NCBI GenBank assembly: GCA_020692325.1
Contig: JAIMKR010000010.1
Coordinates: 1 to 64,000, forward strand
Origin: Desulfocurvus sp.
GTDB lineage: Bacteria; Desulfobacterota; Desulfovibrionia; Desulfovibrionales; Desulfovibrionaceae
Direction: 5' to 3'
Length of the DNA stretch: 64,000 bases
A program made the position numbers and the translations under genes. The notes below the pieces were generated by a model. That model was not told the origin of the DNA. It made no database searches and saw only the letters and a program-made list of their open reading frames with translations. How positions within the stretch are numbered: the stretch's first letter is position 1; every line of letters begins with the position of its first letter. Shown here piece by piece: positions 491 through 7,700 of this stretch.

Positions 491-558
491 CCAGACATAT
501 CTCTCAATCGGACCAGATTCGGCGCCCCCCGCTCATCTTCTTGCCCGGAGGATTTCTC

Positions 559-2571
559 GTGCGACGAATGACGATCAAGGCGCTGCTCGCCATTCTTGGC
601 GGCGTCACCATTTCCGGATTCATCGTGACCCTCGCCCTTTTCGCGCTCCAGTCGCGACACATCGGCGACACCTTCGAGAACATCATCAATGTCGAGGAGG
701 CGCTGCTCGGAAACCTGCAGGAAATGTACGCCCAAGGGCTGCAAACGGAGCAGGCCACGCGCAACGTGGTGCTGAACCCCGCGGACGAGACGGCCAGAAA
801 GAACTACGAGAAGGCCGACGGGAAATTTCTCCAGGCCCTGGAGGCCGCGCGCGGGCTGGCCAAGGACGACATGGCGGCCTCCCTTGCGCCGCTGCCGCAG
901 ATGTGGCGCGAATCCGGCCAGCTCAAGCGGGAGGTCATGGAGCTCGCGGCGGCGGGGCGGACTCGTGATGCCACCGAGCTGCTGAACACCCGCGAGACGG
1001 GCATGTGGCGCAAAATCAAGGCAGTCATCCAGAAGGACATCGAAATCCAGGCCAAGACGAGCAAGGCCACCTATGCTGACTACAAGGCCAGCGAGCGCCT
1101 GTCGTTTTGGCTGGTGATCGCGACGGGGCTCGTTCTGCTGGCCGCCATGGCCGTGCTGATCACCCTCGGCGGCCGGATGATCCTGCGTCCCCTGCGTGAG
1201 ATTCAGGATTTCGCCCTGTGCCAGGCCCATGGCGATTTCGAGAACTGCCGGCTCGGCGAGTTCTCCGGCGAACTGCACAGCGTCTCCGAGGCGCTGCGGG
1301 CCATGGCGGTCAAGGTGCAGGAATCACTCGGCTTCACCCAGGGGGTGCTTGGCGGCATCGCCTCCCCCTTTGTTGTTGTGGATGAGCAAAGCCGGCTGAC
1401 GATGACCAACCAGCCCCTCATCGATCTCATCGAGCAGGACGGCGGCCCGGACGACCACAAGGGAGTGGATGCGGCCCGGTTCTTCTACGGCGTGGCCGCC
1501 CGCTCCACCGTGCTTGGCGAGGCCATGCGCGAAAACCGGACCGTCGTGCGCGAGGTGGACCTGACCGGCCACAAGGGTGGCCAGAAGCGCATCCATATCT
1601 CCGCCTCGCCGCTGTTCAACACCATCAATGGCAAGCTCATGGGAGCGCTTTGTCTGTACACCGACCTCACCGAGCTGCGCGCCAAGGAGGCGCAGGTGCT
1701 GGCCCAGAACCAGGCGGTGACCGAAGCGGCGCAAAAGGCCGAGGCCGTTGTCCACTCGCTGCTCGAATGCTCCGACCGGCTCACCGGGCGGATCTCCAAC
1801 GCCGAGGACGGCGCGGCCCAACAACGCGAGCGCGTGGGCTCCACGCAGCAGGCCATGGGCGACATGAGCGAGGCCATCCACGGCGTCGCGGAAAGCGCCG
1901 AGGTGGCCGGCGGCGGTGCGGAAAACGCCCGGGCCAAGGCCGGCGAGGGCGAGGGAGTGGTGCGCGAGGTCGTGACCTCCGTGGACGACGTGCGCACCCA
2001 GGCGCTGGCCCTCAAGGACAACATGGGCGAGCTGGGTCGGCAGGCCGAGTCCATCGGGCAGATCATGAACGTCATCACGGACATCGCCGACCAGACCAAT
2101 CTGCTGGCGCTCAACGCCGCCATCGAGGCGGCCAGGGCTGGCGACGCCAGACGCGGCTTCGCCGTGGTGGCCGACGAGGTGCGCAAACTGGCCGAGAAGA
2201 CCATGTCCGCCACCAAGGAGGTGGGCGCGGCCATCGGCAGCATCCAGCAGGGCACCCGCACCAACGTGCGGCAGGTGGATCAGGCCGCCCGCTCCATCGA
2301 GCGCGCCAACGAACTGGCCGGACGCTCCGGCACGGCGCTCTCCGAGATTGTGGGCATGGTCAACGACACAGCCCAGCGGGTGCGCGGCATCGCCACCGCC
2401 GTGGAGTTGCAGGCCAAGGCCAGCGAGCAGGTCAACGCCGCCGTCGACGAGATCAGCGAAATCGCCATGCAGACCTCCGCCGGCATGGACGAGGCCGCCC
2501 GCGACGTGGAGGAACTCAAAAAGCTGGCCGACCAGCTGCGCGAGGTCATGGACGTGATGGCCAAGGCCTGA
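559..2571 (+). CDS. Methyl-accepting chemotaxis protein with PAS domain
   Basis: Inner-membrane chemoreceptor of about 670 aa. I choose the GTG at 559 because GGAGG at 547-551 lies 7 nt upstream; the track's start at 541 would lie before that Shine-Dalgarno site, and an ATG at 568 is the alternative. Order of parts: TM1 at about residues 6-28, a helical extracytoplasmic sensor of about 150 residues resembling a four-helix bundle, TM2 at about 183-205, a HAMP-like linker, a PAS-like region around 265-380, then the long coiled-coil signalling domain with the conserved hairpin ([20 protein letters not shown], then [14 protein letters not shown]) near 510-550. There is no CheR-docking pentapeptide at the C-terminus. 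The gene stands alone between a promoter-like sequence and a strong terminator. The ligand is unknown. Confidence 0.95.
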
Positions 2572-2941: not shown

Positions 2942-5038
2942 CTACGCCTCCACGCGCCGCACGCGCACGAAATTCTCCTGCATGGCCACGGCCCCGCCGG
3001 CCTTGTCCCAACGGGGAAAACCGCCGGGCATCAGCTCGTTGTCCGAAACGCCGCGCCCGCGCGCCCGGCTCTCCACCGGCAGCGTGTGGCCGAAGCCATG
3101 CACCGTGAACACACACTCGGGATGGATGAACTCCGTGACAAAGGCGCGCAGCCGGCCGGGCGTTCCGCCGCCAGCCGCCGGGGCCACCTCCACCATGTCC
3201 ATGTTGCCGATGCCCAGCGCCTTGGCCCGGGTCTTGTTGATCCACAACACGTTCTCGGGCATCAGCTCGAACAGCAACGGATTGTTCACCGTGTGCCCCT
3301 GGGTGTGCAGGCCGCAGCGTCCGAAAGCGAGGCGGAAAGCATCCTCGGGCGGACGGCGCGGCGAGACATAGGGCGGCAACGAGGGCAGGCCGTCCTTCTC
3401 CAGCCTGGGGGAGATCACCTCGATCTTGCCGGAGGCCGTCTTGAAGGACAGCGGCTTGTACGTGGGCTTGTCCGCCAGCTCCACGAACCCCTTGGCGTCG
3501 AAGTCGGCGATGGACACGCCGGTCCCCTCCAGCTGACGCTCCCACAGCTGCTCCACACGGTCCACGGCCAGCAGCTCCATGCCCAGGCGCTTGGCCAGTC
3601 CGGCGTAGATCTCCCAGTCAGCCTTGGTGTTGAAGCGCGGGGCCACCGCGCGCCGCCGCATGAAGAACTGCGGCTTGAGACCGCCCTTGCCGGCGATGAT
3701 GCTCTCGCGCTCCAGATAGGTGCTCAGCGGCAGCACCACGTCGGCGTTCCAGGCCGTGTCCGACCAGCTGAAGGTGACGGCCACGAGCAGCTCCAGCTTC
3801 TCCCACAGTTTTTTCACCGCCGCTTGGTCGGGGAAGGACATGAGCGGATCGTGCCGGTGGGCGATGTACGCGCGGATGGGGTACGGATCGTCGCTACCGA
3901 TGGCCTCGAAAGCCAGATTGACCAGTCCGGGACCGGCGTCGAAGTGCGTGCGGCCCTCGGCCCAGCCCACGCCGTCGGCGCGCCTGGCCGTGGGTTTGGG
4001 GAAAAGCTCCTGCAAGGACTTGAGCCCCTTGCGGCCCACGTCACCTGGCTTGCAGGCCAGCGGCAGCCCGCCCTTGGCCCCAATGGCCCCCATGAGCGCG
4101 TTGATGAGGTAGGCTGTGCGGCTGACGTAGAACGAGCCCTCATAGCGGGCGGTCATCCAGCCCGGATGCCAGACGACGCGCGGTGCCGCCTTGGCGAACT
4201 GCCGCACGAACTGGCGCAGGGCCTCGGCCGAGACGCCGGTCTCCTTCGCCGCGAACTCCGGCGTGTACGGCTCCACGAAGGCGCGCAACGCGTCGAGATC
4301 GGCGAACCACTCCTTCACATACTGCCGGTCGTGGAGGTTCTCGGCGAGGATGACGTTGATGACCGTGAGGTTGAAGGCGTAGTCCGTGCCAGGCCGCAGC
4401 AGGAAGAAGTTGTCGGCCTTGGCCCCGGGCACGTTGGCGCGGATGTCCACGACCGTGATCTTGCAGCCGGCATCGCGCGCGTCCATGAGGTCGTTGACCT
4501 CCTTGACGTTGATGGCCTCGAGGATGTTGCGGCTTTGCAGCACCACGTGCCGGGCGTTTTTCAGATCGTAGACGAGATCCGTGCGGCCGCCGCCGGTGAC
4601 CGACTGGGCGGCGTGCTGCACGTTGCGCGCGCAGGCGGCGTCGTGGTTGCAATAGTTGGGCGAACCAAAGCCGCGCAGAAAGGCGCGCTCCAGGTCGACG
4701 AAGGGACCGCCGCGGTCGGAGAGCAGCAGCGACTCCGGGCCGTGCTTGGCGCGAATGTCCGCCAGCTTGCCCGCCACGTAGTCGAAGGCCTCGTTCCAGG
4801 ACACGGCGCGCCACTTGCCCTCGCCACGCGCGCCGGCGCGGATGAGCGGTGTTTGCGGACGCTCGTCGTCGTAAAGCAGGGCCGGTCCAGCCGCGCCACG
4901 CGCGCAGAGCGCCCCCTTGAGCCCCGCGGCATGGGGATTGCCGAACACGGACACCACGCGCCCGTCCTCCACGTCCACCGCGATGGGGCACCCCACGGTG
5001 CACATTCCGCAAACGCTGTATATTTTTTCGCGAGCCAT
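2942..5038 (-). CDS. Molybdopterin-dependent oxidoreductase catalytic subunit (PsrA/PhsA-like), no Tat signal
   Basis: DMSO-reductase superfamily protein of about 698 aa. The start at 5038 (MAREKIY) has AGGAGG 5-6 nt upstream on the minus strand, so the track's start 7 residues earlier is unlikely. C10-x2-C13-x3-C17-x27-C45 is the N-terminal [4Fe-4S] site. The segment SPNYCNHDAAC places a Cys (C136) where PsrA/PhsA-type enzymes have the molybdenum ligand. The C-terminal cofactor-binding domain is present (HTQGHTVNN, then TVHGFGH). There is no twin-arginine leader, unlike periplasmic thiosulfate or polysulfide reductases, so a cytoplasmic location is inferred. It is divergent from a four-cluster ferredoxin and a TSUP permease, which suggests reduction of an imported sulfur compound. 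The substrate cannot be read from sequence. Confidence 0.88.
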   Translation of the reverse strand: MAREKIYSVCGMCTVGCPIAVDVEDGRVVSVFGNPHAAGLKGALCARGAAGPALLYDDERPQTPLIRAGARGEGKWRAVSWNEAFDYVAGKLADIRAKHGPESLLLSDRGGPFVDLERAFLRGFGSPNYCNHDAACARNVQHAAQSVTGGGRTDLVYDLKNARHVVLQSRNILEAINVKEVNDLMDARDAGCKITVVDIRANVPGAKADNFFLLRPGTDYAFNLTVINVILAENLHDRQYVKEWFADLDALRAFVEPYTPEFAAKETGVSAEALRQFVRQFAKAAPRVVWHPGWMTARYEGSFYVSRTAYLINALMGAIGAKGGLPLACKPGDVGRKGLKSLQELFPKPTARRADGVGWAEGRTHFDAGPGLVNLAFEAIGSDDPYPIRAYIAHRHDPLMSFPDQAAVKKLWEKLELLVAVTFSWSDTAWNADVVLPLSTYLERESIIAGKGGLKPQFFMRRRAVAPRFNTKADWEIYAGLAKRLGMELLAVDRVEQLWERQLEGTGVSIADFDAKGFVELADKPTYKPLSFKTASGKIEVISPRLEKDGLPSLPPYVSPRRPPEDAFRLAFGRCGLHTQGHTVNNPLLFELMPENVLWINKTRAKALGIGNMDMVEVAPAAGGGTPGRLRAFVTEFIHPECVFTVHGFGHTLPVESRARGRGVSDNELMPGGFPRWDKAGGAVAMQENFVRVRRVEA

Positions 5039-5073
5039 GAACGCCTCCTGCATCGTCATGAAAGTTCCATTGG

Positions 5074-5115
5074 ATACCCCCCTACATGGAAATCGTGATT
5101 CTGACTAGGGGGATT
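5074..5115. promoter_or_regulatory. Inverted repeat upstream of the molybdoenzyme gene
   Basis: The arms ATACCCCCCTA and TAGGGGGATT are separated by about 21 nt and lie 35-75 nt upstream of the minus-strand start. It could be an operator or a hairpin in the 5' leader. Confidence 0.4.
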
Positions 5116-5224
5116 ACGCGGCAAAGCTTACAACCATGCGGATTTCCTGCGATCATTTTTCTCAAATGCATCAATCTATTATCTCTGATCGTCATGAGAA
5201 AAAAAGAACGAAAGTCGCCCGCTC

Positions 5225-5255
5225 TTGACATCATACTTCACGATATGGTTAGAAT
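5225..5255 (+). promoter_or_regulatory. Putative promoter of the ferredoxin-TSUP genes
   Basis: A perfect TTGACA -35 box is followed by TTAGAA or TAGAAT after 18 or 19 nt, in the AT-rich part of the 328-bp divergent gap (5039-5366). Spacing is slightly long. The rest of the gap holds only the inverted repeat at 5074-5115. Confidence 0.4.
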
Positions 5256-5366
5256 TCCAAACTACGGGATACCTCTCCGGGGTTTCCGAACGAGCCGGAA
5301 TGGTGCGCGCGCGTCGTCCGGGGAGCGTTTCTCCGTAATATGACAGGGCAATGCGGGGGAAACTTC

Positions 5367-5822
5367 ATGAGTCTGTATCGAATCGCGCTCAATCCGAACA
5401 GATGCATCGGCTGCAAGGCCTGCCTCGTCCATTGCAACATCAAGAACAAGCTGCCGGCCGGGCTCTCGCTCAACCGGCTCAAAGTCCTGGGACCATTCAC
5501 CGGACCCGACGGACGGCCACGCATGGAGTTCGTCTACCAGAACTGCATGCAGTGCGACGATCCCTTTTGCGTCAAGGCCTGCCCCGCGGGGGCGCTGGCC
5601 AAGAGACCCGAGGACGGGCTCGTCTGGCTGGATCAGGACGCCTGCATCGGCTGCCACCGCTGCACCGAGGCCTGCCCCTGGGAGGTCCCCGTCTTCGTGG
5701 AGACCCGGGGCAAAACCATGAAGTGCGACTACTGCAAGGACCGCGTCGACCAGGGGCTGGACCCCGCATGCGTCACCGGTTGCACGGCCAAGGCGCTCAC
5801 CTTCATCCGACCGGCCCCGTAA
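5367..5822 (+). CDS. Four-cluster [4Fe-4S] electron-transfer subunit (PsrB/PhsB/DmsB-like)
   Basis: A 151-aa iron-sulfur protein. The start at 5367 (MSLYRI) follows a GGGGGA Shine-Dalgarno-like run; the track's start 9 residues earlier has none. Four Cys groups are visible: CIGCKACLVHC, CMQCDDPFCVKACP, CIGCHRCTEACP and CDYC...PACVTGC, the pattern of the small electron-transfer subunits of molybdopterin oxidoreductases. There is no signal peptide, matching the Tat-less catalytic gene transcribed divergently. No NrfD/PsrC-type membrane subunit is present nearby, so the electron donor is unknown; a soluble complex is inferred. Confidence 0.9.
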   Translation: MSLYRIALNPNRCIGCKACLVHCNIKNKLPAGLSLNRLKVLGPFTGPDGRPRMEFVYQNCMQCDDPFCVKACPAGALAKRPEDGLVWLDQDACIGCHRCTEACPWEVPVFVETRGKTMKCDYCKDRVDQGLDPACVTGCTAKALTFIRPAP

Positions 5823-5910
5823 CATCCTCACAATCGCGACTGTGGCCCCGCGTGTGCGGCGCGGGGCAATCAATACAGCCAACCACAATCTTCGGAGGAG
5901 TACTGCGCTT

Positions 5911-7170
5911 ATGAAAAAACGTCACATGATCGCCCTCGCCATCGCCACCCTGGCGCTCAGCCTGTGGTTCGGCGCGGCCATGGCCCAGCAGGCGCCCGAC
6001 CCGGCGGTGAACGCCACAGCGACGGAAGCCAAGCCGGCCGCCGCCCCGGCCAACGCCACGGACGCCGCCGCCAAGCCCGCCCCCACCAGCGCCAGCGGCA
6101 AGCTCGCCGACGCCATCGCCAAAGCCCCGCGCGGCACCGGCCCCGGCCAGATCGACGAGACCAAACCAGCAGGATTCCTTGGCATTCCCGGCGCGCCCAA
6201 CACCAACATCATCCTGGCCCTGGTCTGGGCCGTGTGGGTTGGCTGGATCTTTTCCACCGTGGGCGCCTTCGGCGGCGTCATGGCTGGCGTGGGGCACATG
6301 AGCGTCTTCGGCTTCGGCTCCTACGCCGGCGGCCTCAAGAAGACCGCACCGGACCTCGGTAAAATCGTCACCGACTCCATCAAGGTGTCCAACCAGTTCC
6401 TGGTGGGCACCTCGGCGGCCATCAGCTCCTTCAACTACCTCAAGATGAAGCGCCTTGTGCTGCCGCTGGCCATCAGTCTGGGCCTGGGCTCGCTCATTGG
6501 CGCGTGGGGCGCCGCCACCCTTTCCGCCGGCAAGCTCGACTTCAAGTCCTACCAGGGCTACTTCGGCCTGTTCGTGCTCTTCCTGGGCTGCTGGCTGTTC
6601 TACCAGACCACCGAGAAGGCCCGCGCCAAGCAGAAGACGGCCAAGGCGGCCGCCAAGGCCTTCGAGGACGCCATCCAAAAGCAGAAGTGTGGTGAAAAGG
6701 TCGAGGAATGCAACGTCGGCCTGCGCATCAACCGCTTCAACATGAGCGCCTGCGACTTCACCTTCTACGGTGTGCCCTTCCACTTCAATCCGCTGGTTCC
6801 GTTCCTCGGCGGCGTGGTCATCTCCGCCGTCGCGGCATTCCTGGGCGTCGGCGGCGGCTTCCTGCTGGTGCCCTTCCTCACCAGTGTGACCCAGCTGCCC
6901 ATGTACCTGGCCGCCGGCACCAGCGCGCTGGCCGTGCTCGTCAGCATGGTCACCAGCATCATCACCCTCATCAGCAAGGGAACCCCCATCGAATGGCACT
7001 TGGTGGGCGTCGAGCTCATCGGCATCGCCATCGGCTCCATTATCGGCCCCAAGACCTCCAAGTACCTGTCCGACTCGCTGATGAAGCGCATCTTCATTCT
7101 GCTGTCCCTGTACATCGGCATCGGCTACACGCTGGCCGGCTTCGCCGGAATCAAGATCCCCGGCGTGTAA
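5911..7170 (+). CDS. TSUP (TauE/SafE) family permease with N-terminal signal peptide
   Basis: A 419-aa polytopic membrane protein. The ATG at 5911 has GGAGGAG about 10 nt upstream; the longer track ORF from 5842 is rejected because it begins before this site. A cleavable leader (cut after AMA) precedes a 60-residue Ala/Pro/Lys-rich extracytoplasmic stretch, then at least seven hydrophobic segments. The family repeats are recognisable (FGGVMAGVGHMSVFGFGS and FLGVGGGFLLVPFLT). TSUP proteins move sulfite, sulfoacetate, thiosulfate and related anions. It follows the ferredoxin by 88 nt, so co-expression is likely, and it would supply or export the anion handled by the divergent molybdoenzyme. The substrate is inferred from context only. 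Confidence 0.88.
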   Translation: MKKRHMIALAIATLALSLWFGAAMAQQAPDPAVNATATEAKPAAAPANATDAAAKPAPTSASGKLADAIAKAPRGTGPGQIDETKPAGFLGIPGAPNTNIILALVWAVWVGWIFSTVGAFGGVMAGVGHMSVFGFGSYAGGLKKTAPDLGKIVTDSIKVSNQFLVGTSAAISSFNYLKMKRLVLPLAISLGLGSLIGAWGAATLSAGKLDFKSYQGYFGLFVLFLGCWLFYQTTEKARAKQKTAKAAAKAFEDAIQKQKCGEKVEECNVGLRINRFNMSACDFTFYGVPFHFNPLVPFLGGVVISAVAAFLGVGGGFLLVPFLTSVTQLPMYLAAGTSALAVLVSMVTSIITLISKGTPIEWHLVGVELIGIAIGSIIGPKTSKYLSDSLMKRIFILLSLYIGIGYTLAGFAGIKIPGV

Positions 7171-7229: not shown

Positions 7230-7700
7230 ATGACACCCTTCGACATCCTCGACGCCCTGCTCATCGCCCCATTCCGTCTGTTCGGCCCGCCGGCGGCCGG
7301 CTTTCTCTTCGGCGAACTCTTCCTCGCCTTCGTCGGCGCGGCCCTCGGCCGCGGCACGGACGCCCTGGTGGCCCGCTCCCAGCGCGCCCGGCGCGACGAA
7401 CAGGAACGCGAGACCCGCCGGCGCAGCGAACTCTCCGAGCAGGCCCTGCGCCAGGGCGACAAGAAGGCCTACCTCGTCCAGAACGACCTGGCGCAACAGG
7501 CCTACGGCAACACGCTGGCGCTGGCGGCCGGTCGCGGCGCGGCCCTGCTCTGGCCTGGCTGCGCGCTGCTGGCCTGGCTGTCCTGGCGCTTCGATGGCGC
7601 GCCCATGCCACTGTTGTGGAGCAGCGCCGGTCCCGCTTGGTATTTCATCCCGTTCTATGCCGGAGCCCTGTGGTTCCTGGGACGTATTTTTAGAAAATAG
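7230..7700 (+). CDS. Small membrane protein of unknown function
   Basis: A 156-aa product from the ATG at 7230, the only usable start in this frame after the TSUP stop. An N-terminal hydrophobic segment (GFLFGELFLAFVGAALG) is followed by a charged Arg/Glu-rich helical region of about 45 residues, then two more membrane segments near the C-terminus, ending in LGRIFRK. I do not recognise the family. The Shine-Dalgarno-like AAGGAGAGG is about 19 nt upstream, which is far, so translation may be weak or coupled. It lies in the same direction as the TSUP permease. Confidence 0.65.
   Translation: MTPFDILDALLIAPFRLFGPPAAGFLFGELFLAFVGAALGRGTDALVARSQRARRDEQERETRRRSELSEQALRQGDKKAYLVQNDLAQQAYGNTLALAAGRGAALLWPGCALLAWLSWRFDGAPMPLLWSSAGPAWYFIPFYAGALWFLGRIFRK

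Follow-up and report, generated by a model that had tools for sequence, protein, structure and literature searches.

The described systems closest to the locus reported here are the thiosulfate reductase PhsABC of Salmonella and of E. coli plasmids (NCBIfam NF012032) and the PsrABC enzyme of Thermus, which is exported through the twin-arginine translocation (Tat) pathway and has an NrfD-type PsrC subunit. Formate hydrogenlyase (FdhF-HycB-Hyc) combines a cytoplasmic molybdoenzyme of the MopB family with a four-cluster ferredoxin and a complex I-like membrane arm. The locus itself comprises four genes, for a phsA-like molybdoenzyme, a phsB-like ferredoxin, a TSUP permease and a small membrane protein here called u156, within 64,000 nucleotides of a Desulfocurvus sp. 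genome (contig JAIMKR010000010.1, positions 1 to 64,000), the whole of which is referred to as the window. We consider it likely that their products form a system that uses thiosulfate in the cytoplasm, in which the ferredoxin serves as hub and has a partner that varies between lineages.

Several published observations bear on such a system. Overexpression in E. coli of the PhsA protein E8L03_06385 of Oceanidesulfovibrio marinus CS1 raised H2S from thiosulfate (PMC10989961). PhsAB mutants of D. alaskensis G20 had a mild, specific fitness defect that was strongest on thiosulfate (PMC4215793); this PhsAB is only a possible ortholog of the clade described below. In Thermodesulfovibrio N1, a molybdopterin A subunit and an Fe-S B subunit (THER_0567-0568) lie beside nuoABCDHIJKLMN, and the authors suggested that proton transfer is coupled to sulfur oxidation or reduction (PMC5165239). 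The likeness to the present genes is one of gene arrangement, and the passage on these N1 genes mentions neither TSUP nor u156. For complex I lacking NuoEFG the electron donor has been stated to be unresolved, a search for a conserved donor having failed, and a role as a docking platform was proposed (PMC11238625). The nuo operon of D. gigas likewise lacks nuoEFG (PMC4287179).

Results

In a phylogeny of 92 catalytic subunits (a single FastTree LG run, with ArrA and SrrA not among the sequences and Thermus PSR taken from a printed alignment), the Tat-less proteins, including that of the window, formed a single clade (support 0.979). Enteric PhsA was its sister group (support 1.0), and TtrA, FdhF, NapA and DmsA were placed elsewhere. 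Tat-bearing paralogs of about 35% identity (group B) clustered with Thermus PSR, and the two kinds frequently co-occur in a single genome. Membership of the polysulfide-reductase clade was therefore ruled out. The Thermus "thiosulfate reductase" PSR (2vpw) was nevertheless the best solved-structure match for the A and B subunits alike. The open reading frame (ORF) at 2942-5059 on the minus strand has the Pfam Molybdopterin domain (3.3e-37) together with Fe4S4 and dinucleotide-binding domains. The Fe4S4 cysteines 17, 20, 24 and 52 are invariant in 58 relatives, and the molybdenum-ligand Cys143 is kept in 57 of these. The best NCBIfam model was PhsA, at 469 bits against a cut-off of 694, while the ArrA model matched at 125.8 bits. 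The sulfur-anion chemistry proposed in an earlier, sequence-only reading of this DNA is upheld by the sister relationship to enteric PhsA and by the tested ortholog described below, and the tree placed the enzyme in no clade of known non-sulfur function. Thiosulfate is most likely the substrate.

The same reading had placed the enzyme in the cytoplasm, and this location is supported by the predicted N-termini. No Tat leader was present in the window protein or in any of the 30 Desulfovibrionaceae orthologs that were read, whereas the group B paralogs read in that family do carry one. The motif AGGAGG, 5 bases before the ATG at 5038, is identical across six loci of Humidesulfovibrio, the closest named relatives, and because of this perfect conservation the ATG at 5038 is probably the true start and a length of 698 amino acids is favoured. 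A leader cannot hide further upstream, since the frame above 5059 is open for just 15 codons and has no start codon, and an upstream Tat-encoding start was therefore ruled out. As had also been claimed, a membrane NrfD/PsrC subunit is missing from the window contig, the three NrfD genes of the genome being on contigs 21 and 22. No PhsC cytochrome b gene was found among the neighbouring ORFs of the window.

One of the surveyed genomes (G051) appears to be that of the organism whose enzyme was assayed in E. coli. The phsA of this genome, a member of the Tat-less clade, encodes a protein about 65% identical to that of the window and has a ferredoxin gene divergently adjoining it; here, the TSUP gene is not next to phsA. 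Its type III sulfide:quinone oxidoreductase (SQR) scored above the NCBIfam cut-off and has cysteines at exactly 159 and 331, matching the publication. Gene spacing predicts locus tags near 05425 for the SQR and 06385 for phsA, and no second molybdoenzyme lies near the predicted 06385 position. From the SQR cysteines, the predicted tags and the lone molybdoenzyme we infer, tightly, that G051 is O. marinus CS1 and that its Tat-less phsA is E8L03_06385. By analogy the window enzyme may have thiosulfate reductase activity, which is published for this ortholog only. The phenotype of D. alaskensis was not used as direct proof, since the strains of Dde_1076 and DVU0173 were not recognised among the genomes; Dde_1076 and the purified D. 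vulgaris thiosulfate reductase (EC 1.8.2.5) are only possible members of the clade.

The genes for the molybdoenzyme, the ferredoxin and the permease are all present where the sequence-only reading had placed them (Table 1). It had also regarded the Fe-S subunit as divergent and the three genes as a row. The ferredoxin is instead 38% identical to enteric PhsB and, like it, has four clusters, while phsA is transcribed divergently from the ferredoxin, TSUP and u156 genes, the last of which belongs to the set as a fourth member. Relative to PhsABC, the window system thus shares a sister A subunit with its cofactor cysteines kept and a similar B subunit, but is without a Tat leader and adds TSUP and u156. 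The TSUP protein carries an N-terminal hydrophobic segment and an Ala/Pro-rich linker. In u156 the residues D8, G28, G40, S69, A72, N85, A88, W116, R120 and F139 are invariant (alignment A1). A search of Pfam with u156 returned a non-significant match only, and an AlphaFold model built from 7 sequences was too poor to use (predicted local distance difference test score 61.8).

Among 149 Desulfovibrionaceae genomes, the Tat-less phsA was found in 79 (27 genera). Of these, 46 (18 genera) have a TSUP gene no more than 20 kb from phsA, on the opposite strand in 41. This breadth argues that the proximity is not due to chance and bears out the association of permease and molybdoenzyme noted in the window. 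Co-occurrence of the two genes is strong as well (Fisher p 3.6e-14), a figure inflated by shared ancestry. The ferredoxin gene is usually next to phsA, either divergent or in tandem. Outside the family, TSUP, u156, phsA and ferredoxin form a single-strand row in that order in three loci (L117, L121, L136). The ferredoxin-TSUP-u156 set is conserved across Desulfobacterota, which is new here. A further eight outside-family loci (L105 to L111 and L114), with catalytic subunits 53-66% identical, have no ferredoxin or TSUP ortholog by phsA.

The neighbourhoods of relatives also contain candidate energy-coupling partners. In 15 genomes, from nine genera of the family, nuoD lies within 5 kb of phsA, upstream and divergent in 14 and downstream on the same strand in one (G114). 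The complex I operon lacks nuoEFG wherever Desulfovibrionaceae loci were read through, and in four of the nine genera it sits exactly between phsA and the ferredoxin-permease genes. In G045, G015 and G016, phsA is divergent from nuoA...N-ferredoxin-TSUP-u156, again without nuoEFG; G041 and G069 have the same order with only nuoB-C-D-H-I, and genus g40 (G114, G068) has phsA-ferredoxin-nuoA...N-TSUP-u156 with a different complex I subtype. In G044, which is without the first subtype, an Rnf operon occupies the nuo position. Outside the family, nuo genes adjoin phsA in six loci (L113, L117, L119, L123, L124, L135), the nuo operon of the L113 genome also having NuoF- and NuoG-like genes (L160), and in seven more loci the gene beside or near that of the ferredoxin encodes a GltD-like flavoprotein, NAD(P)H-dependent by type and bearing Fe-S domains. 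Subunits were confirmed by Pfam in L155 and L170 only, the remaining loci being typed by tblastn and by eye. Since nuo-linked and nuo-free phsA are interleaved in the tree, gain or loss of the linkage must have occurred repeatedly. Together these arrangements suggest that the partner with which PhsA-ferredoxin exchanges electrons can be swapped, and that one such partner may be a complex I driven by the proton-motive force.

Linkage of the window's own operon to nuo was ruled out, the nuo genes of that genome being on contig 6. There, an ORF resembling the N-terminus of type I restriction enzymes follows nuoN, and the ORF after u156 in three linked clusters (L155, L161, L170) is 45-54% identical to it. 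This resemblance suggests, without proof, that the window's set was formerly joined to nuo.

Table 1. Features of the phsA locus and of associated sequences (window coordinates unless a locus is named).
Feature	Position	Strand	Remarks
phsA-like bis-molybdopterin guanine dinucleotide catalytic subunit, Tat-less	2942..5038	-	698 aa; ATG 5038 supported by a ribosome-binding site; ORF reaches ATG 5059
Divergent promoter region	5039..5366	.	blocks conserved in six aligned Humidesulfovibrio loci
phsB-like ferredoxin, four [4Fe-4S] clusters	5367..5822	+	151 aa; no leader; 16 Cys in four quartets
TSUP/TauE permease	5911..7170	+	419 aa; PF01925 89.8 bits, gathering cut-off 32.6
u156, small membrane protein	7230..7700	+	156 aa; no known family; adjoins TSUP in most linked loci
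PAS-domain methyl-accepting chemotaxis protein	541..2571	+	convergent with phsA; not a core part
HSDR_N-like ORF	L155 17455-18036; L161 17486-18037; L170 18215-18781; L162 4261-4827 (own genome, contig 6)		183-193 aa; tracks the u156/nuo cluster

Between the divergent genes, the six Humidesulfovibrio loci share the blocks ATACCCCC-TA, CTAG-GGG, GAAAAAAAGAACG and TTGACA...TATGG. A sigma-70 consensus scan of this region returned no site, although the aligned loci keep TTGACA and TATGG. The first three blocks are possible operators of some regulator, as judged by their conservation. The chemotaxis receptor at 541-2571 is retained convergent with phsA in four more loci of the Humidesulfovibrio group (L034, L035, L039, L041), and could possibly sense the compound that the phsA system uses. 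Where the TSUP-u156 pair stands apart from phsA (L166 to L169), and also in the nuo-linked L153 and L154, the genes that come next encode a binding lipoprotein of the PhnD type, a sensor kinase with Cache/PAS domains, a response regulator and one more kinase (checked by Pfam in L166 and L169 only), preceded in L166 and L168 by a DUF169 gene. The cluster resembles sulfur-oxyanion sensing systems. A search of the window for its binding protein and kinase genes gave just generic kinase and response-regulator matches at 44-50 kb. In G044 (L170, 6775-15095), the genes between phsA and ferredoxin-TSUP comprise Rnf, a multiheme cytochrome c, ApbE and a CitMHS_2 transporter.

Discussion

In the system that we favour, thiosulfate would cross the membrane via TSUP with u156 and, once in the cytoplasm, would be split reductively by PhsA-ferredoxin into sulfide and sulfite, the latter being consumed by DsrAB. 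The ferredoxin would act as the electron hub and, to judge from the gene order of relatives, may receive its electrons from a reversed complex I, from Rnf or from NAD(P)H; in the window genome its partner is not encoded next door. The thiosulfate/sulfite plus sulfide couple lies at about -0.40 V and menaquinone at about -0.07 V. With 4 H+ translocated for every 2 electrons at about 170 mV, a pump gives about 0.34 V, which is barely sufficient. A more specific version of this system is doubtful: PhsA-ferredoxin would replace the NADH module by docking on the EFG-less complex I of 11 subunits, and cytoplasmic thiosulfate reduction would be driven by menaquinol and the proton-motive force, or energy would be conserved by the reverse reaction. 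TSUP and u156 would supply the substrate, lineages would have swapped two complex I types, Rnf and the GltD-like flavoprotein, and the window module would be the version separated from nuo. Such an architecture would be like that of formate hydrogenlyase by analogy, although the MopB clade differs.

A number of observations weigh against a cytoplasmic thiosulfate-using system of this composition. The catalytic subunit does not reach the NCBIfam PhsA equivalog cut-off. For this type of TSUP neither a transport assay nor a solved relative was found, and TSUP proteins also export sulfite. The TSUP gene is absent from 11 of the 79 phsA genomes, while 18 genomes have it without phsA, and in the eight outside-family loci mentioned above no ferredoxin adjoins phsA. 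Furthermore, the assay of the O. marinus enzyme was made in whole E. coli cells with background activity, and the published G20 phenotype is weak (PMC4215793).

It is quite possible that the enzyme is ordinary and uncoupled, the vicinity of complex I or Rnf in relatives being a mere clustering of respiratory genes. Ten phsA genomes are without a NuoD of this kind, twenty have the NuoD without phsA, and the window genome carries its nuo genes on a different contig. Clustering alone would, however, have to account for nuo by phsA in nine genera and with two complex I subtypes, for the Rnf operon that takes this position in G044, and for the flavoprotein beside the ferredoxin elsewhere.

The role of the permease could also be the opposite of that proposed, with TSUP exporting sulfite or another product and thiosulfate entering through sulfate carriers. 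Sulfite exporters exist among characterised TSUP proteins, several carrier families have been proposed in sulfate reducers (PMC5840216) and this TSUP is missing from some phsA genomes. Since DsrAB consumes sulfite in a sulfate reducer by an established pathway, its export would waste an acceptor, and the retention of TSUP without adjacent phsA, next to genes for a sensor kinase and a binding protein of the PhnD type, fits substrate sensing and uptake. We therefore regard export as rather unlikely and TSUP as a candidate thiosulfate importer.

A reaction in the oxidative direction, with sulfite and sulfide yielding thiosulfate and low-potential electrons passing by way of the ferredoxin to Rnf or complex I, would suit the swappable energy-coupling partners, and with the couple near -0.4 V such an oxidation could power proton pumping. 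It is nonetheless improbable, as experiments on relatives show only reduction and DsrAB competes for sulfite in a sulfate reducer. Similarly improbable is a substrate other than thiosulfate (another S-S, sulfonate, arsenic or selenium compound, or formate): MopB specificity shifts readily and outside-family clade members are just 42-66% identical, but the enzyme's place in the tree, the test of the O. marinus ortholog, the linkage to a sulfur-anion permease family and, for arsenate, the scores of the ArrA and PhsA models (ArrA being absent from the tree) all speak for thiosulfate.

The sequence-only reading had proposed import followed by cytoplasmic reduction or oxidation as a distinct route for sulfur compounds. 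The location, the chemistry and the linkage to TSUP give good support to import followed by cytoplasmic reduction. The idea that the enzyme is a previously unseen route is not supported, since PhsAB of Desulfovibrio already carries the annotation of a thiosulfate reductase and an ortholog has been produced in E. coli. That reading did not include the divergent orientation of phsA, the presence of a fourth gene or, in relatives, the linkage to complex I, Rnf or a flavoprotein. The open-licence papers searched gave no account of TSUP-u156, of the exchange between two complex I types, Rnf and flavoprotein, or of its phylum-wide spread.

The recurrent phsA-ferredoxin-permease set around EFG-less nuo offers one concrete candidate partner, with a defined substrate, for this form of complex I. 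It also points to a protein that may import thiosulfate and adds a membrane protein family that is new. If the proposed system is correct, it would explain how sulfate reducers without PhsC use thiosulfate, an acceptor of very low potential, in the cytoplasm.

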